64,000 nt of DNA from Sphingopyxis microcysteis (GTDB taxonomy: Bacteria > Pseudomonadota > Alphaproteobacteria > Sphingomonadales > Sphingomonadaceae), in contig NZ_JAANYY010000002.1 in assembly GCF_012274265.1 (NCBI RefSeq), positions 1,178,001 through 1,242,000 of the forward strand, given 5' to 3'. The notes under the pieces were generated by a model. The model did no database searches. It was not told where the DNA came from and worked only from the letters and a program-made list of their open reading frames with translations. Shown one piece after another: positions 10,145 to 58,821 of the stretch (the first letter of the stretch is position 1; each line of letters begins with the position of its first letter). Made by a program: the position numbers and the translations under genes.

Positions 10145-12257
10145 GCTGTTGCGGGCGGCGCCACGGATGCGCATCGGCTCGACGCAGTGCGCTGACGGCG
10201 GTGGGCGGATCGTCCAGATAGAGCGCCAGCCCACCGGTTTCGGCCAGGCTGTCGCGATCGATCGTCATCCAGCGTCCGACGCACTCGCGCGGTAACCAGC
10301 GGTCGCTGATCACGACATCGGCGGCGGCGCAAGCGGCGGCCATATCGGCGCCCTCGATCCGATCACGCCCGCGCGATGTGAGGATGATCCGCCGCGCGGG
10401 GCCCTCGCCCTGGCTCCAGCGGCAAAAATCGCGGTTGCATTCGACATGGTCGAGCTCGGCGAGCGCCGCCAGCGGCGTATCGATCCCCGCCGCCTCGGAC
10501 AGCGTATCGCGGACATAATCGCCCGCCCGGTCACGCAGCAGCGCGTAGCCGCCATCGGGCAAGGCCGCGGCGATATGCTTGCCGTCGCCCGTCACCAACA
10601 GATCGGGGCGCGGCTGGGCAAGCAGCGCCGCCATGCCGACCGCCACCGGGATCAGCCCCGCCCGGCGCCAGCGCGTTTGCCAGAGCAGAAACCACAACCC
10701 GCCGAACACCGTGATCGCAAATCCCCATGGCGGAAACACAGGTAACGTAGCGACGGCGCCTGGGGCAGAGGCCACCCAATGCGCCAATCCAATCAGTGCG
10801 TTAAGGGCTTCTTCGGCAATCCACCAGAAAGGCGCGCCAAGACCGATGCTGTCGAACATCAGCGCCAAGGCTTCGGCGGGCATGATGACAAAGGTCGTCA
10901 GCGGGATCGCGACCACATTCGCAAGCGCGCCATAGAGGCCCGCCTTGTGGAAATGGAACAGCGCTATCGGCGCCAGCGCGGCCTCGACGACCAGTCCGGT
11001 CAGGATCAGCGCTCCCACGCCGCGGCCCAACCGAAACACCCACGGCTCCTCGCGCCGCGCGACATAGGCGCGCATCCAGCGGCTTTCGTGGAGCGCCACG
11101 ATCGCGGTGACCGCGGCAAAGCTGAGCTGAAAGCTCGGCCCCGCCAGCGCCTCTGGCCGCCACAGCATCACCAGCAACGCCCCCGCCGCCACCAGCCGCA
11201 GCGTCATTGCCTCTCGCCCCATCAGAAAAGCTACCATCACCAGCAAAGACGCGATGAACGACCGCAGCGTCGGCACTTCGGCCCCGGCAAGCAGCGTGTA
11301 GCCGCCGCCCGCCAGCGCTGCGGCGGCGGCGGCGAGCGGCAGCACCCAGCCCCGCAGCGCCAATCGCCGACTGAGTGCGAGCAACCGCATCGACAGCAGC
11401 ATCGTAAAGCCGACCACTGCCGTCACATGCAGTCCGCTGATCGACAGCAAATGGGCCAACCCGCTGCGCCGCATCGCCTCGTCATCGGCCTCGCTGATCG
11501 CGCCGCGGTCGCCCGTTACCAGCGCAGCCGCGACGCCCCCAGCCGACCCGTCGACCTGCTCGTGGATATGCCGTGTCAACCGCGCCCGCAGCGGCGGCGG
11601 CCCCTGGCCCGCACCGGGCGCGCGGCCGATGTCGCCGATCACCGTCCCGACCGCGCCCAGTCGGTCGAACCAGGCGCGCTGGGCGAAATCATAGCCGCCG
11701 GGCAGGCTGGCGGTCGGTGGCGGCATCAATCGCGCCCGCAGGCCGATCCGCTCGCCCGGGATGACCCCGGCGGCCTGCTCTTCGCTCGCCGTCACGCGTA
11801 ATCGCGGCGGTAGGTCGGCGCGCGCGTGGGGACGGACGATCAACCGCACCTGTCCGCGCGCCGGTTGCGCGTCAACGCGCTCGACCTCGGCTGAAAAGCT
11901 GGTGGTGACCGGCTGCGCCAGCACCGGCGCCGCAACCCACAGCGCACGCCCCCAGATGAGCAGGATACCGGTCGCCATGACACCGCAGCCGATGACGATT
12001 GCGCGGCCCAGCCGCCGCTCCCAGCCGATCATGCCGCCTGCCAGCGCCCCTGCGCCCAGCGCCAGCAGCGACCCGATCCAGTGCATCGCCGTCGGCAGCG
12101 CCAGCCACAGCGCGATCCCGGCGCCAAGCGCGGCGGGAAGCCACAACGCGATCCGCTCGCGCTCTGCCTCGAGCCGCAGCTCGATGGTGTCGCCCAGCGC
12201 TTCCCAGCGACTGCCACGGCGCGGGGCAATGGGCGTTTGAAGCTGTCTTGTCGCCAT
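10098..12257 (-). CDS. comEC: ComEC/Rec2 family DNA-uptake channel protein
   Basis: With the ATG at 12257 the protein has 719 residues ([15 protein letters not shown]). Paired membrane segments near the N-terminus are followed by a DUF4131-like soluble region, then the Competence domain with [15 protein letters not shown] and several more membrane helices. ComEC proteins carry single-stranded DNA across the inner membrane. The C-terminal part is soluble, but I do not see the HxHxDH zinc motif of the usual metallo-beta-lactamase domain, so that domain is absent or degenerate. The frame remains open upstream to 12446, but that stretch overlaps divergent gltX. Confidence 0.88.
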
Positions 12258-51512: not shown

Positions 51513-51608
51513 GCCCCGCCGCATATCCATTGGCCCACGGAATGCAAGCCGCGCCGTCGGCTGTGCATGGTTACCGTTTGGTAAGCCATATTGCGTAGGA
51601 GGCCGCCG

Positions 51609-52091
51609 ATGGACAGCGGCAATATCTCCCTTGGCCTGATGGTCATATTAGGCCTTTTGATGATCGCTGCGGCGATCAGCGACCTGCGATCGCGGACAAT
51701 TTCCAACGAGCTCAACGCGGCGATCGCCCTCCTCGCTATCCCCTTCTGGATTGCCAGCGGCCTCGCGCTGTGGCCCGACATGCCCGTTCAGTTCGGTGCG
51801 GCGTTTGCGGTCTTCCTGGTTTTTGCCGGACTCTTTGCGATCGGCGCAATGGGCGGCGGCGACGTGAAGATGATCGGCGCGGTGATGCTGTGGATCCCGC
51901 TGCCGCTGTTCCTGCCGATGCTCACGGTCATGGCCGTGGGCGGCGGCATCCTGTCGGCCGTCATGTTGATTCATATGAAAATTCGTCGGTCCGAAACGCC
52001 GGTCGAGGTGCCCTATGGGGTCGCGATCGCCGCCGCCGGGCTTTGGGCGCTTCACCAACAATATCTTAACCAGTTTCAGGCTATCGGTTGA
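51609..52091 (+). CDS. cpaA: Tad pilus prepilin peptidase CpaA/TadV
   Basis: The 160-residue membrane protein belongs to the A24 aspartic peptidases. Catalytic Asp residues lie in AISDLRSRTISN and GAMGGGDVKMIG. It cleaves the Flp prepilin leader and pseudopilins. AGGAGG precedes the ATG. It is the first gene of the cluster; the pilin itself is not found upstream. TTACC and GGTAA form an inverted repeat about 45 nt before the ATG. Confidence 0.92.
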   Translation: MDSGNISLGLMVILGLLMIAAAISDLRSRTISNELNAAIALLAIPFWIASGLALWPDMPVQFGAAFAVFLVFAGLFAIGAMGGGDVKMIGAVMLWIPLPLFLPMLTVMAVGGGILSAVMLIHMKIRRSETPVEVPYGVAIAAAGLWALHQQYLNQFQAIG

Positions 52092-52145
52092 GCCTGAGGG
52101 CAAACACCGCCGTGTCTGGCTGGTGTTAGGAGGCGAAAAATCGTC

Positions 52146-53183
52146 ATGGATACGCGAAAGATTATGCTGATCGTTGGCGCGCTGGTCATTGCGATCGGCG
52201 CGGCATTCGGGGTCAACCAGATGATGCGCGGGGCTTCGGCTCCGGAAGCTCGGGCCGCTGCGGCGCCGGAGATTACCGGTCCGATGATCCTGGTCGCAAC
52301 GCGGCAGCTGCCGGTCGGCACGATCATCGGCCCCGACAGCTTCCGTTTCCAGCCCTGGCCGAAAGAGCTGGTCGAAAAGGCGTATTTCATGAAGGAAAAG
52401 ACCGACGTGAACACGTTGGTCGGCACCGTCGTGCGCTATCCGATCACCGCCGGCCAGCCGCTGACCCAAGGCGCGCTGGTCCATCCCGACGATCGCGGCT
52501 TCCTTGCTGCGGCGCTCGGCCCCGGCATGCGCGCCGTGACGGTCAAGGTCAGCCAGGAACAGGGCGTCGCCGGCTTCGTCTTCCCGGGTGACCGCGTCGA
52601 TGTCCTGCTGGCGCAGACGATCGAGGTCAAGGAAGGCAGCGCCTATCCCGACGATCAGATTTTCACCGCCGAAACGATCGTGCGTAACGTCCGCGTGCTT
52701 GCGACCGACCAGCGCTACGATGCCGAAGACGAAACGGGCAAGACGCCGGTTCGCACCTTTGGCTCGGTTACGCTGGAAGCCACTCCGGAACTCGCCGAAC
52801 GTATCGCGGTCGCGCAGAGCATGGGCAAATTGTCGCTGGCGCTCCGTCCGCTGGCCGAAAGCAGCGGCGAACTCGAAGCCGCGATCGCCTCGGGCGACAT
52901 CAGCGTCCCCGCAAAGGGCGGCACCGAAGCCGAACGCCGCATGCTGGCGCAGGCCCAGGCCCGCCCGGTTACTGCAAAGACCGCGACAACCGGCGGCGAC
53001 GTATCGCGCTTCTGGATCCCGGTCAGCGGCCGTGTCGGCGGCGGCGGATCGCGTCCGCAGCAGCAGGCAGTCGGAATGCCGGCACCTTCAGGGGGCAATT
53101 ATGGACCGGCGGCGCGCAGTGGACCCGTGGTCCGCGTGACGCGCGGCGACAAAGTGACCGAAGTTTCGGTTGGGGGTAAGTAA
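52146..53183 (+). CDS. cpaB: Flp pilus assembly protein CpaB/RcpC
   Basis: The 345-residue protein has a signal anchor (MLIVGALVIAIGAAFGV), a SAF domain (ILVATRQLPVGTIIGPD) and an RcpC-type domain (VSQEQGVAGFVFPGDRVDVL). It sits in the periplasm and is thought to support the secretin. The ATG has TTAGGAGG upstream. cpaC follows after 1 nt. Confidence 0.94.
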   Translation: MDTRKIMLIVGALVIAIGAAFGVNQMMRGASAPEARAAAAPEITGPMILVATRQLPVGTIIGPDSFRFQPWPKELVEKAYFMKEKTDVNTLVGTVVRYPITAGQPLTQGALVHPDDRGFLAAALGPGMRAVTVKVSQEQGVAGFVFPGDRVDVLLAQTIEVKEGSAYPDDQIFTAETIVRNVRVLATDQRYDAEDETGKTPVRTFGSVTLEATPELAERIAVAQSMGKLSLALRPLAESSGELEAAIASGDISVPAKGGTEAERRMLAQAQARPVTAKTATTGGDVSRFWIPVSGRVGGGGSRPQQQAVGMPAPSGGNYGPAARSGPVVRVTRGDKVTEVSVGGK

Positions 53184-53184
53184 G

Positions 53185-54750
53185 ATGAACAGCAAACCCA
53201 ATTTCAAGGCAGCGGCCCTGGCCCGCACCCTGGCCATTGGCCTAGTCGCAGCGACGCTGGTTTCCGCGCCGGTACAGCCGGTGGCTGCCCAGGCAACCCA
53301 GAACGCCAGCAGCAGCATCGACCTGTCGGTGGGCCGTGGCCGCCTGATCAGCCTTCCGGCTGCCATGACCGACATCTTCGTCGCCAATGACGAAGTCGCC
53401 GACGTCCAGGTCCGTTCGGGGCGCCAGCTTTACATCTTTGGCAAAAAGCCGGGTGAAACCAGCATCTATGCCACCGATGCCAGCGGCCGCGTGGTGTTCT
53501 CGACCGTCGCCCGCGTCGGCAACAATATCGAAACGATCGATCAGATGCTGTCGCTGGCAATGCCCGACGCCAGCATCTCGGCGAACACGATGAACGGCTT
53601 TGTGCTGCTCACCGGCACCGTCCAGTCGCCCGACGACGCGGCCGAAGCCGAAATGCTGGTTCAGGCCTTTGTCGGCGAGGGTACGAAAGTGTTGTCGCGT
53701 CTGCGCACGGCAACGCCGCTGCAGGTCAATCTGCAGGTCCGCATCGCCGAAGTGAATCGCACTTTGGTCAAGGAAATGAGCGGCAACATTCTGACTCGCG
53801 ATCGAGACGGGGCGCTGGGCAACGGCTTCCTTGGTGGAGTTTTCGGCGGTCGGTCGGCTGGCGAAATTACTTACCCCCAAGCGCCGACGGCGGTGTTCCC
53901 CCCCGGCACGGTTCCGATTCCCTATGACCCGGCTACCGGCCTTCCGCTCGGCAACGGTCGTACGACTATCGGGACAAACTATCAGTTCAATCAGCCGGCA
54001 GGTCGGCGCAGCCTGGCCGGTGCCGGTCGCCTGTTCGGGCTCGACCTGATGGCGTCGCTCGATATCGGCGAACGATCGGGGCTGGTCGCCACCTTGGCGC
54101 AGCCCAATCTGACCGCGATCTCGGGCGAAACCGCCGACTTCCTGGCGGGCGGCGAATTCCCGGTTCCGATCCCCGGCAACCTTGCCGGGACGACGATCGA
54201 GTATCGCAAATATGGCGTCAGCCTGGCCTATACGCCGACGGTGCTGTCGAACGGTCGTATCAGCCTGCGCGTTCGCCCCGAGGTTTCGGAGCTTTCGACG
54301 GAAGGCGCCATCGAGCTCGACGGTTTCCAGGTTCCGGCCCTGACGGTTCGCCGGGCCGAAACGACGGTCGAACTGGGGTCGGGCGAAAGCTTCATGATCG
54401 CCGGCCTGATGAACAACCGTTCGATCGGCGCCATCGACAAGATGCCCGGCCTTGGCGACGTGCCGCTGCTCGGCACGTTGTTCAAATCGGACAGCTTCCG
54501 GCGTGGCGAGACCGAACTGGTCATTGTGGTGACCCCCTATCTGGTCCAGCCGGTGTCGGCGAACGACATCAAGCTGCCGACCGACGCCTATCAGGACGCG
54601 AACGATCTGCAGCGGATCCTGCTCAATCAGACCGGTGACGGCGTGACGGGCGGCGATCGTCCGAAGCCGCGGCTCGACACCAGCGTCGGCGACGCGGATC
54701 GCCCGCGCGGTAGCAGCGCCGACGTCGCCCCCGGCTTCAGCATCAAGTGA
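53185..54750 (+). CDS. cpaC: Flp pilus secretin CpaC/RcpA
   Basis: The 521-residue protein has a signal peptide (LAIGLVAATLVSAPVQPVAA), an N-terminal pilus-and-N1/N0 region (LSVGRGRLISLPAAMTDIFV), a BON-like segment and the type II/III secretin domain with LVATLAQPNLTAISGETA and VPLLGTLFKSDSFRRGETEL. It forms the outer-membrane ring for the pilus. An in-frame TTG is at 53170, but ATG 53185 has the GGGGGTAAG ribosome site. Confidence 0.95.
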   Translation: MNSKPNFKAAALARTLAIGLVAATLVSAPVQPVAAQATQNASSSIDLSVGRGRLISLPAAMTDIFVANDEVADVQVRSGRQLYIFGKKPGETSIYATDASGRVVFSTVARVGNNIETIDQMLSLAMPDASISANTMNGFVLLTGTVQSPDDAAEAEMLVQAFVGEGTKVLSRLRTATPLQVNLQVRIAEVNRTLVKEMSGNILTRDRDGALGNGFLGGVFGGRSAGEITYPQAPTAVFPPGTVPIPYDPATGLPLGNGRTTIGTNYQFNQPAGRRSLAGAGRLFGLDLMASLDIGERSGLVATLAQPNLTAISGETADFLAGGEFPVPIPGNLAGTTIEYRKYGVSLAYTPTVLSNGRISLRVRPEVSELSTEGAIELDGFQVPALTVRRAETTVELGSGESFMIAGLMNNRSIGAIDKMPGLGDVPLLGTLFKSDSFRRGETELVIVVTPYLVQPVSANDIKLPTDAYQDANDLQRILLNQTGDGVTGGDRPKPRLDTSVGDADRPRGSSADVAPGFSIK

Positions 54751-54775
54751 TGTCCAGGATTTCAGGAGCAAAGTG

Positions 54776-55420
54776 ATGAAAAAAATTGCAACTTGGACGG
54801 TCCTGGCACTGAGCGCTTCGCTCGCGGGATGCACCGGCACCGCCTACAGCAACCGCAGCCTCGATTCGGTGCATCAGCCGGTCGTGCGCAATGCCATCCA
54901 TCAGTTCGACGTCGCCGCTTCCAGCGGCGAGCTGGCCCCCAGCGAGCAGAGCCGACTGCAAGGTTGGTTCGACGCGATGGGCGTGCGTTACGGCGACCGC
55001 ATTTCGATCGAAGACCCCTCGGTCTATGGCGCCACGTCGGCGCAAGCGACTGTGCGGTCGATGGTCGCCCGTCGCGGACTGCTGGTGAGCGACGTTGTTC
55101 CGGTAACCACGGGTGCAGTGCCGCAGGGCCATTTGCGCGTGATCATCACCCGCGCGTCAGCCTTCGTCCCCGGCTGCCCCGATTGGTCCAGCAAGTCTTC
55201 GATCAATACCGCCAATGCGACGTCGGCCAACTATGGCTGCGCGACGAACAGCAACCTCGCTGCGATGGTCGCCGACCCCAATGATCTGATCAAGGGCGCG
55301 CGCAGCGACGGCAACGATCCGTCGATGGCGACGCGCGCGATCAAGACTTTCCGCGAAAAGCCGCCAACAGGGGCCGGTGAACTGCGCGGTGAAAAGACCA
55401 ACGAAGGAGGTGGCCAGTGA
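54776..55420 (+). CDS. cpaD: Flp pilus assembly lipoprotein CpaD
   Basis: The 214-residue protein starts MKKIATWTVLALSASLAGCT, a lipoprotein signal with Cys at the mature start. The CpaD domain shows NAIHQFDVAASSGELAP and ASAFVPGCPDWS, with NYGCATNSNLAAMVADPNDL near the C-terminus. It is an outer-membrane partner of the secretin. Its stop overlaps the cpaE start by 4 nt. Confidence 0.94.
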   Translation: MKKIATWTVLALSASLAGCTGTAYSNRSLDSVHQPVVRNAIHQFDVAASSGELAPSEQSRLQGWFDAMGVRYGDRISIEDPSVYGATSAQATVRSMVARRGLLVSDVVPVTTGAVPQGHLRVIITRASAFVPGCPDWSSKSSINTANATSANYGCATNSNLAAMVADPNDLIKGARSDGNDPSMATRAIKTFREKPPTGAGELRGEKTNEGGGQ

Positions 55421-56691
55421 ACGCGCCGTTCAAATCCGCAGGCTTGCGTGACCCGTTCAGCGCCTTCGTGTGCGACGACGACACGCTTGAGCTGATCCGC
55501 GCCGCCGCCAACGACATGGGCTGGCCGATCGAGAAATGTAACAAGGGCGGTCTGCGCAACGCGGTCCAGTCGCTGTCGGTGTCCGCCAGCCCGAACATCC
55601 TGTTCGTCGACATGTCGGAATCGGGTGACCCGATCAACGACATCAACGCGCTGGCCGAAGTCTGCGAACCCGGCACCGTCGTGATTGCGGCGGGGCAGGT
55701 CAACGATGTGCGCCTGTACCGCGATCTGCTGTCGAGCGGCATCCAGGATTATCTGCTCAAACCGTTGTCGCTGGAACAGGTTCGCGAATCGCTGACCATG
55801 GCGCAGGCGATGCTGACCGCGCCGAAACATGCCGATATGCAGGACGACAAACCGCATCACATGATGGCGGTGGTCGGGGTGCGTGGCGGCGTCGGCGCTT
55901 CGCTTGTCTCGACCTCGCTCGCCTGGGCGATGAGCGAACAGGCGAGCCGCCAAACGGCGCTGCTCGACCTCGACGTCCATTTCGGGACCGGCGCGTTGAC
56001 GCTCGACCTGGAACCGGGTCGCGGCTTGATCGACGCGATCGACAATCCGAGCCGCATCGACGGCCTGTTCATCGAACGCGCCATGGTGCGGGCGTCGGAC
56101 AAGCTCAGCCTGCTGTCGGCCGAGGCGCCGATCCATCAGCCGGTAATGACGGACGGATCTGCCTTTTTCCAGTTGGAAGAAGAATTGCGCGGTGCGTTCG
56201 AAATGACGATCGTCGACATTCCGCGCCAGGTGCTGATCCCCTTCCCCCATCTGGTGGCGGAGGCCGGAACGATCCTGCTGGTCACCGATGTCACGCTGGC
56301 GGCCGCACGCGATACCATTCGCCTGCTGTCCTGGTTCAAACAGAATGTGCCCGGCGCCCGCGTCGTGCTGGTCGCCAACAAGTTCCAAAGTGCCGTCGGT
56401 GAACTGTCGCGCAAAGAATTTGAATCCTCGATCGAACGCCAGATCGATGTCGTGATCCCGTTCGACCCGAAACTGGTCTGCCAGTCAGCGAAGCTTGGCA
56501 AATCCTATGCCGAAGTCTGCAAGGGCACCAAAGCCGCGCAGGTGTGGAACAATCTGATGCGCCTGATCCTCGACGGCGCCGATGTCGAAGCCGAAGAGGC
56601 GCAGGCAGCAACGGCCAAGGGCAAGTCGGGCGGTTCGTTGCTCGGCAAGCTCGGGTTGATGACGAAAAAGGGTGCGAAGCAGGCGGCATGA
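55417..56691 (+). CDS. cpaE: pilus assembly ATPase-like protein CpaE/TadZ
   Basis: The 424-residue protein has an atypical receiver-like N-terminal region (about 1-130) and a ParA/MinD-like domain with a deviant P loop, VRGGVGASLVSTSLAW, lacking the usual Lys. This is common in CpaE/TadZ, which marks the pole for pilus assembly. It starts with GTG and has AAGGAGG upstream. In other Tad clusters cpaF comes next, but here tadB follows after 57 nt. Confidence 0.93.
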   Translation: MNAPFKSAGLRDPFSAFVCDDDTLELIRAAANDMGWPIEKCNKGGLRNAVQSLSVSASPNILFVDMSESGDPINDINALAEVCEPGTVVIAAGQVNDVRLYRDLLSSGIQDYLLKPLSLEQVRESLTMAQAMLTAPKHADMQDDKPHHMMAVVGVRGGVGASLVSTSLAWAMSEQASRQTALLDLDVHFGTGALTLDLEPGRGLIDAIDNPSRIDGLFIERAMVRASDKLSLLSAEAPIHQPVMTDGSAFFQLEEELRGAFEMTIVDIPRQVLIPFPHLVAEAGTILLVTDVTLAAARDTIRLLSWFKQNVPGARVVLVANKFQSAVGELSRKEFESSIERQIDVVIPFDPKLVCQSAKLGKSYAEVCKGTKAAQVWNNLMRLILDGADVEAEEAQAATAKGKSGGSLLGKLGLMTKKGAKQAA

Positions 56692-56748
56692 CGGTCCGCC
56701 AGACGGACCTTCACCACCAAAAAGCGATAGAAGCGGACATCTGCTGAC

Positions 56749-57717
56749 ATGAATCTGCCAGTCATCCTTATCATCGCCGGGGCCGTGCTGGCCTTTGCCC
56801 TGCTCGTCGTCTTGCTGGGCGGGCCTTCGGCCGGCAAAGCCAAGACGCGCCGACTGGCGATGGTCAAGGACCGTCATGCCGCTTCGACCGAAGCGGTCGT
56901 GGCGGCTCAGATGCGCAAGACGATCCAGTCGGGTGTCCAGGGCAACGCAACGCTGGCCAGCCTGATGCCGCGCCGCGAAGAGATGGAAAAGCGCCTTCGC
57001 CGCACCGGCAAGGGATGGACGCTTACCCAATATATGTTCGCCTCGATGGGCCTTTTTGTCGTCGTCACCGGCGGCATGCTGGCCATGCGCGCGCCGATCA
57101 CCATGGCCGGGCTCATCGGCTTGCTGTTGAGCCTTGGCCTGCCGTATCTGATCGTCGGGCGCGCGATAAAAAAGCGCGTCGCCCAGTTCAACACCCGCTT
57201 TCCCGATGCGATCGACCTGCTCGTCCGCGGCCTGCGGTCCGGCCTGCCCGTCACCGAGACGTTTCAGGTGGTGAGCCAGGAGCTCCCCGGTCCGGTGGGT
57301 GAGGAATTCAAGGGCATTGTCGAACGCATCCGTATCGGCAACACGATGGAAGCCGCATTGCAGGAATCGGCTGTGATGCTGGGGACGCCCGAGTTTCAGT
57401 TCTTTTGCATCACCATCCAGATTCAGCGCGAGACGGGCGGCAACCTCGCCGAAACGCTGTCCAACCTGTCGGATGTGCTGCGCAAGCGCGCCCAGATGAA
57501 ACTCAAGATCCGGGCCATGTCGTCGGAAGCCAAGGCATCGGCGTACATCGTCGGCGCCTTGCCCTTCTTCGTCTTTGGCGTCGTGTGGTCGATGAATCCC
57601 AGCTATCTTGAGGGCTTCTTCTACGAGCAGCGGCTGATCATCACCGGGATCGGTGGCCTGATCTGGATGAGCATCGGGGCCGGGATCATGGCCAAAATGA
57701 TCAGTTTCGAAATCTGA
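56749..57717 (+). CDS. tadB: Tad pilus inner-membrane protein TadB (GspF-like)
   Basis: The 322-residue protein has an N-terminal membrane helix, a cytoplasmic part and a type II secretion F domain: FPDAIDLLVRGLRSGLPVTE and IQRETGGNLAETLSNLSDVL. With TadC it forms the platform that a TadA/CpaF ATPase drives. It is preceded directly by cpaE; the 57-nt gap holds GGTCCG/CGGACC, a 6-bp inverted repeat, and only a weak ribosome site. Confidence 0.93.
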   Translation: MNLPVILIIAGAVLAFALLVVLLGGPSAGKAKTRRLAMVKDRHAASTEAVVAAQMRKTIQSGVQGNATLASLMPRREEMEKRLRRTGKGWTLTQYMFASMGLFVVVTGGMLAMRAPITMAGLIGLLLSLGLPYLIVGRAIKKRVAQFNTRFPDAIDLLVRGLRSGLPVTETFQVVSQELPGPVGEEFKGIVERIRIGNTMEAALQESAVMLGTPEFQFFCITIQIQRETGGNLAETLSNLSDVLRKRAQMKLKIRAMSSEAKASAYIVGALPFFVFGVVWSMNPSYLEGFFYEQRLIITGIGGLIWMSIGAGIMAKMISFEI

Positions 57718-57730
57718 AGGGGCGGAACCA

Positions 57731-58765
57731 GTGAACAGCAGCCTCCTTCTCACCACCTTCACCGGCGCCCAGGCTGGACCGACGCTGATGGGCGTCGACG
57801 TGATCTGGGCCGGTACCATGCTGGCCGCGGTCGGCGTCTTTGCCGTTCTGTTCGCCATTTATGGCGCGCTGACGGTGCGCAATCCGATGACCAAGCGCGT
57901 CAAGGCGCTCAACGAACGCCGCGAACAGCTGAAGGCCGGTATCACGGCATCGACCGCGAAACGCCGCGCCAAGCTGGTGCGCAAGAACCAGCACGCCGAC
58001 AAGATGCGGACCTTCCTGGGCAAGCTTCAGGTGCTGCAGGAAGGCCAGGTCAAAGAGGTTCAGCAAAAGCTGGCGCAAGCGGGGATCCGGTCAAAGGATC
58101 TGGCGGTTGCGGTGATTTTCGGCCGCCTCGTGCTGCCGATCGTGTTTGGCGGTCTTGCCGCGTTTCTGATTTACGGCCTCGACATGTGGCCCGATCTCAC
58201 GCCATTCAAACGCTCGGGCGCGACGATGGCGGCGCTGATCCTCGGCTACAAGGCACCCGACCTGTTCGTTCAGAACAAGCGGACCAAGCGAACCGACGCG
58301 ATCCGCAAGGGCCTGCCCGACGCGCTCGACCTCCTGGTGATCTGCGCCGAAGCCGGTTTGACCGTCGACTCCGCCTTCGCGCGCGTGTCGAAGGAATTGG
58401 GCCGGGCCTATCCCGAACTCGGCGAGGAATTTGCGCTGACCTCGATCGAGCTGGGCTTTTTGACCGAACGTCGTCAGGCGTTCGAAAATCTGGCCTATCG
58501 CGTCAATCTGGAGTCGGTGAAGGGCGTGGTCACGACCATGATCCAGACCGAAAAATATGGTACGCCGCTCGCCAGCGCGCTGCGCGTGCTGTCGGCCGAG
58601 TTCCGTAACGAACGCATGATGCGCGCCGAGGAAAAGGCCGCACGCCTGCCGGCGATCATGACGGTGCCGCTGATCCTCTTCATCCTGCCGGTGCTGTTCA
58701 TCGTCATTCTCGGCCCGGCGGCCTGTTCGCTCTCCGACGCGATGTCCGGCGGCAGCTTCGGCTGA
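57731..58765 (+). CDS. tadC: Tad pilus inner-membrane protein TadC (GspF-like)
   Basis: The 344-residue protein has three or four membrane helices and a GspF domain (GLPDALDLLVICAEAGLTVD, IQTEKYGTPLASALRVL). It starts with GTG and GAAGGGG is upstream. It is the last gene of the cluster; a strong terminator follows at 58793. TadD, TadE, TadF and TadG genes are not found downstream. Confidence 0.93.
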   Translation: MNSSLLLTTFTGAQAGPTLMGVDVIWAGTMLAAVGVFAVLFAIYGALTVRNPMTKRVKALNERREQLKAGITASTAKRRAKLVRKNQHADKMRTFLGKLQVLQEGQVKEVQQKLAQAGIRSKDLAVAVIFGRLVLPIVFGGLAAFLIYGLDMWPDLTPFKRSGATMAALILGYKAPDLFVQNKRTKRTDAIRKGLPDALDLLVICAEAGLTVDSAFARVSKELGRAYPELGEEFALTSIELGFLTERRQAFENLAYRVNLESVKGVVTTMIQTEKYGTPLASALRVLSAEFRNERMMRAEEKAARLPAIMTVPLILFILPVLFIVILGPAACSLSDAMSGGSFG

Positions 58766-58792: not shown

Positions 58793-58821
58793 AAGGGGCG
58801 GGATCAATCCCGCCCCTTTTT
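58793..58821. terminator. bidirectional terminator between tadC and the FAA hydrolase gene
   Basis: AAGGGGCGGGAT and ATCCCGCCCCTT pair around a short loop, with TTTTT after the stem on the plus strand and an A-rich start that serves the minus strand less well. It closes the convergent tadC and FAA hydrolase genes. Confidence 0.88.

Follow-up and report, generated by a model that had tools for sequence, protein, structure and literature searches.

The Tad pilus genes of Caulobacter crescentus are arranged as pilA-cpaABCDEF-cpaG-cpaH, and the locus described here has the same gene set in the same order, cpaF and the pilin gene aside. Unlike in Caulobacter, the cpaF, flp and tadE/G genes stand at separate loci, and the CpaF encoded away from the operon (the orphan CpaF) is of another lineage; it matches the solved Caulobacter CpaF structures 9e24 and 8rkd. 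The canonical eight-gene operon, which is the arrangement in other families of the Sphingomonadales and in the Sphingomonadaceae genomes G087, G005, G042, G058, G013 and G054, is syntenic in cpaA-E and tadBC but retains cpaF between cpaE and tadB. In Sinorhizobium meliloti, with its flp-1 and flp-2 clusters and orphan flp loci, Tad genes lie partly at orphan loci as they do here, but each main cluster has its own cpaF (PMC10934763).

The scatter of Tad genes observed here is the same as that in Sphingopyxis granuli TFA, and such a layout is already on record in the paper on that strain (PMC6472365), where Table 1 gives cpaABCDEtadBC as loci 1907-1901, flp as 3632, tadGE1E2 as 0765-0767 and cpaF as 3775. 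According to the RNA-seq values of that paper, expression dropped 4- to 13-fold in anoxia across all of these scattered loci (cpaABCDEtadBC, -4 to -13; flp, -9; tadGE1E2, -4 to -5; cpaF, -5). This joint repression provides independent support for the scattered genes being one regulon. Its authors also observed that cpaA follows flagellar genes, for which they suggested control by CtrA. The sections of the paper that concern these genes list the loci but do not remark on the lack of an operonic cpaF or on how this evolved. Our literature search on orphan or duplicated CpaF in sphingomonads found this paper alone, and the replacement of one paralogue by another appears to be undescribed in the searchable literature.

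We analyzed a stretch of 64,000 nucleotides (the window) from a Sphingopyxis genome of 3.46 Mb (10 contigs, completeness of 100%), the closest named relatives of which are Sphingopyxis. Seven genes in the order cpaA-B-C-D-E-tadB-tadC, all on the plus strand, occupy positions 51609-58765 of the window and are followed by a terminator-like structure:

51609..52091, plus strand: cpaA, TadV-type prepilin peptidase (Peptidase_A24, E = 2.8e-14)
52146..53183, plus strand: cpaB, RcpC, with SAF and RcpC domains (PF16976, E = 1.6e-34)
53170..54750, plus strand: cpaC, RcpA-type secretin (PF00263, E = 1.7e-38; PF13629)
54773..55420, plus strand: cpaD (PF09476, E = 3.2e-51)
55417..56691, plus strand: cpaE, TadZ, MinD/ParA-like localization protein (ParA/MinD matches below cut-off; synteny with cpaE of relatives)
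56749..57717, plus strand: tadB, CpaG, inner-membrane platform protein, T2SSF (PF00482, E = 8e-27)
57731..58765, plus strand: tadC, CpaH, inner-membrane platform protein, T2SSF (PF00482, E = 1.1e-18)
58793..58818, plus strand: terminator-like stem-loop at the operon end (11 pairs, then a T run)

Six of the seven products matched Pfam profiles above the curated cut-off, CpaE being the exception. The block thus holds parts that define a Tad/Flp (type IVc) system, namely a prepilin peptidase, RcpC/CpaB, a secretin and CpaD side by side, together with the two T2SSF platform proteins TadB and TadC. All seven reading frames are intact, including those of tadB and tadC, for which the initial annotation had already claimed as much, and the gene calls and profile matches agree with its seven-gene order lacking cpaF and a pilin gene. 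From cpaA to tadC, the intergenic distances are +54, -14, +22, -4, +57 and +13 nt. Starts farthest upstream are those given in the list of open reading frames. The cpaA frame is open from a TTG at 51591, and its more likely start is the ATG at 51609, 3' of an AGGAGG, which is where it had originally been placed; cpaC likely starts at the ATG at 53185.

The absence of the motor gene from its usual place, between cpaE and tadB, was examined at two features of the junction:

56692..56748, plus strand: cpaE-tadB gap of 57 nt, a position that cpaF occupies in other Sphingomonadales and in the family's early-branching members
56689..56713, plus strand: intercistronic stem-loop with GGTCCG/CGGACC arms that begins at the cpaE stop codon and recurs in relatives

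The 57-nt length claimed for the gap is exact, and no ATPase gene lies within it; a cpaF at this position is typical of the Tad arrangement, not required for Tad membership. An error of assembly, or a frameshift, could in principle create such a gap, and the first of these had been raised as a caveat, but we found no evidence supporting an artefact. A near-identical genome (G228) has a gap of 56 nt, and in all 30 Sphingopyxis loci examined, which come from separate assemblies, the junction measures 40-69 nt and lacks cpaF; in other genera, it measures 16-109 nt. This recurrence rules out an assembly error, and we give an artefact of either kind practically no credence.

The inverted repeat in the gap had been proposed to mark an old deletion. 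In a covariation test across 18 aligned junctions, with 500 shuffles as a control, 85% of the pair cells held, and two-sided changes were found in 11 cells, a number reached by none of the 500 shuffles; sliding of the partner arm destroyed the pairing. The pairing is thus maintained by compensatory changes while the sequence varies, and stem-loops with other sequences occupy the cpaE-tadB junction in many other genera, which identifies the hairpin as a kept element and rules out a deletion scar. This claim rests on the covariation, since the single-sequence folding z-scores of the junctions were only modest (median of about -1.5). Among the genomes with a complete operon, a clear stem-loop was seen only in G087, between cpaE and cpaF. 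The hairpin is likely a maintained element whose putative function is to divide cpaABCDE from tadBC in the message. Just 5' of tadB, a GATAGAAGCGGACA-type block (window positions 56725-56745) is near-invariant in Sphingopyxis despite the variable hairpin before it; this block is perhaps a translation-initiation signal.

The genome encodes only three ATPases of the T2SSE family. Two of them belong to secretion operons, GspE to one of type II and VirB11 to one of type IV, whereas the third stands by itself:

contig 4, 147431-148990: orphan cpaF, alone, behind atpC

The orphan CpaF is intact and aligns along almost all of its length with the solved Caulobacter CpaF (E = 1.3e-138). It carries a Walker A motif (GGTGSGKTT), an Asp box and arginine fingers, with equivalents of K287, T288, E312, R217, R223, R347 and D215, the catalytic and arginine-finger residues named for CpaF in PMC12019362. 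When compared with PilT- and VirB11-like ATPases, it scored best as CpaF (466 bits versus 143 for the next group), and TIGR03819 (TadA family) was its top NCBIfam model, yet below the cut-off of that model. An assignment to GspE, PilB or VirB11 is ruled out by these profiles, and the genome thus has a CpaF/TadA-type ATPase. A non-coding block 5' of the orphan start codon is strongly conserved in 32 Sphingopyxis loci, as expected if the gene has its own promoter. It reads GCATTAGGACAATGTCAAAGTTTCC..TTATTCACC (locus L011, about 10990-11060, minus strand) and lies at homologous positions in L114-L153. On contig 5, a VirB-type type IV secretion operon (L012, 1900-10200) lies beside a region of lower third-codon-position G+C, possibly a mobile element.

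The other parts that the cluster lacks were likewise located elsewhere. All six frames of the entire window were searched for the Flp cleavage signature without a match, in agreement with the reported lack of a pilin gene by the cluster; two flp genes lie on contig 4 near 499 kb, the product of the first above the profile cut-off (E = 2.2e-14) and that of the second below it (E = 7.7e-6). TadE matches above cut-off were obtained at two places, on contig 1 at 932.7 kb and on contig 3 at 584.5 kb, each with TadG-like neighbors, and the contig 3 locus (583-587 kb) holds tadG-tadE and a second, weak TadE-like frame. The tadE/tadG-type pseudopilin genes noted as missing from the cluster are thus present at these two loci. 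The genome-wide search for cpaF/tadA, flp and tadE-G that had been proposed located cpaF, flp and tadE/tadG-type genes at separate loci, bearing out the suggestion that the missing parts are encoded elsewhere. Scattered as it is, the predicted Tad machine is complete as to cpaF, flp and tadE/tadG, the parts that the searches covered. Near the flp genes, at the end of contig 4 (L013, 12786-15129), a serine-recombinase-like gene suggests an integrative element. Elsewhere, the congeneric genomes G120 and G037 carry 10 and 8 Flp pilin genes, compared with 2-4 in most others.

An 11-mer chosen because it is common to two of the scattered loci has only two copies in the whole genome:

51576..51586 of the window, plus strand: GTTTGGTAAGC upstream of cpaA
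contig 3, 586763-586773 (L015), minus strand: second copy of GTTTGGTAAGC, upstream of tadG

As a lead only, GTTTGGTAAGC may be a control site that the scattered Tad loci have in common. G044 carries CTTTGGTAAGC at cpaA. No shared CtrA-like TTAA-N7-TTAA sites were found upstream of the scattered loci, and a single TTAACC half-site was present, before flp1.

We then surveyed 151 Sphingomonadaceae genomes, counting orphan-type cpaF matches at 71-100% identity. Orphan-type cpaF was found in 126 genomes and tadB of the type in the window in 124. The orphan accompanies this tadB in 122 of the 124, always away from the operon, and the other two (G013 and G054) lack the orphan and have cpaF inside the operon; the co-occurrence is associated with a Fisher p value of 6e-21, which overstates independence because the genomes share ancestry. 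Orphan and tadB share a contig in 69 genomes, never with less than 14 kb between them (median, 287 kb). At the 80 named orphan loci, no cpaE, tadB or tadC was found in the flanks covered (up to 10 kb on each side). Forty-five of the 80, including most of those in Sphingopyxis, lie downstream of ATP-synthase genes. Flp was found in 137 of the 151 genomes, by the listed positions usually not adjoining tadB. The layout with the motor away from the operon is family-wide. A mundane explanation foreseen by the initial annotation, that relatives share the seven-gene order and have a second locus carrying cpaF and flp, holds for the shared order and the location elsewhere, but not for a single locus, as cpaF and flp are separate. 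A further CpaF, strongly diverged (about 43-50% identical), is encoded by some family members (L270-L273 and L278); its gene at least sometimes adjoins a diverged tadB-type gene and constitutes a second Tad system.

With motor, pilin and minor pilins all outside the cluster, the operon could be taken for a decaying relic, its motor deleted and the machine dead, and the orphan CpaF could serve something else; a machine that was rewired or had lost a gene had also been among the options considered earlier. However, the seven frames are intact, tadC is present in 40 of 40 Sphingopyxis genomes, the orphan accompanies the operon almost without exception, and expression is coordinated in S. granuli, as reported in PMC6472365. 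No sign of a non-functional machine emerged from the evidence assembled, and we regard a dead relic as highly improbable.

Comparison of the junction in relatives, as had been advised, showed cpaF to be present there in some and replaced by a short gap in Sphingopyxis. Orphan and operonic cpaF coexist in four genomes (G087, G005, G042 and G058), within which their products share only 49-54% identity. In G087, contamination is excluded because both copies are on one contig, ∼60 kb apart. In a maximum-likelihood tree of 76 CpaFs, all 27 orphans formed one clade (support of 100/100) apart from operonic CpaF, and this clade was joined (100/99) by CpaFs of G152, G162 and G164 from other families, which have no detectable tad neighbors, on contigs so short that the context is uncertain. 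The operonic CpaFs of the family mostly clustered with their operonic counterparts from other Sphingomonadales families (98/96). Those of G014 and G032 are divergent and were placed among other Alphaproteobacteria.

These results bear on whether a rearrangement simply carried the operonic cpaF to the atp locus, the orphan being the relocated original. The orphan does retain the full CpaF architecture and is the sole Tad ATPase of the genome, but the separate orphan clade, its affinity to CpaFs without detectable tad neighbors in other families, the grouping of family operonic CpaFs with those of other families and the coexistence of two divergent copies in four genomes all oppose such a move. 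The CpaF tree rules out the orphan as a relocated operonic copy, and relocation overall is very unlikely.

A tree built from CpaE, TadB and TadC indicated at least two losses of operonic cpaF. One affected the large crown group and another G101, which has the orphan only, whereas both copies are present in its congener G005. The orphan, too, is absent at least twice, in G054 and in G013 with G023, the latter pair resting on incomplete drafts (91% and 67%). In the simplest history, a single machine would have been served by two CpaF lineages, both old, with differential loss afterwards; to judge from this loss pattern, the two lineages are probably interchangeable. Judged by these gene phylogenies, the 57-nt gap is the mark of a gene lost long ago and offset by a paralogue, and the suspicion of an old deletion was right in substance, related genomes having retained cpaF between cpaE and tadB.

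The orphan might instead have begun as a second, specialized motor, e.g., for retraction, beside a general operonic CpaF and later taken over both functions where the operonic copy disappeared. Consistent with this, G005, G042, G058 and G087 combine both copies with one operon, and orphan and operonic CpaF have become fixed as separate lineages, each with residues specific to its type. However, neither needs the other, since each occurs alone elsewhere (only the orphan in most members, only the operonic copy in G054 and G013), and the only Tad motor that has been characterized in depth serves both functions (PMC12019362). We consider such an origin doubtful. Similarly doubtful is its broader form, in which Sphingomonadales once ran one Tad machine on two CpaF motors with distinct roles, after which most of the family came to rely on the non-operonic motor alone, for both functions, and a few lineages on the operonic one alone.

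We are confident that the seven genes are instead the main block of a conventional but scattered Tad/Flp (type IVc) pilus, with an orphan CpaF of an old lineage as the motor in trans after loss of the operonic copy. Gene content, residues, trees and co-occurrence are the basis of this assignment, together with the co-regulation published for S. granuli TFA. In the proposed machine, CpaA would process both Flp pilins, CpaB/C/D would form the outer-membrane channel, CpaE would position the machine, and TadE/TadG-like proteins from the other loci would complete it. A hexamer of the orphan CpaF would drive extension and retraction via TadB/TadC; both its physical cooperation with this platform and its performing both functions are predictions from these data. 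The orphan lineage would once have coexisted with operonic CpaF, and deletion of the operonic copy in most of the family would have left the short junction.

At the level of function, this explanation is ordinary; the evolutionary story beneath it is modestly interesting. Annotation by cluster alone would wrongly yield a "motor-less pilus." Should the two-motor reading be true, this would be, to our knowledge, the first two-motor Tad system. The family provides a natural experiment, with closely related operons served by an operonic motor, an orphan motor or both. It thus allows a test of whether CpaF motors can still replace one another on a given TadB/TadC platform after long divergence, and of whether there may be separate extension and retraction motors in the Tad pilus, so far described as a single-motor system (PMC12019362).
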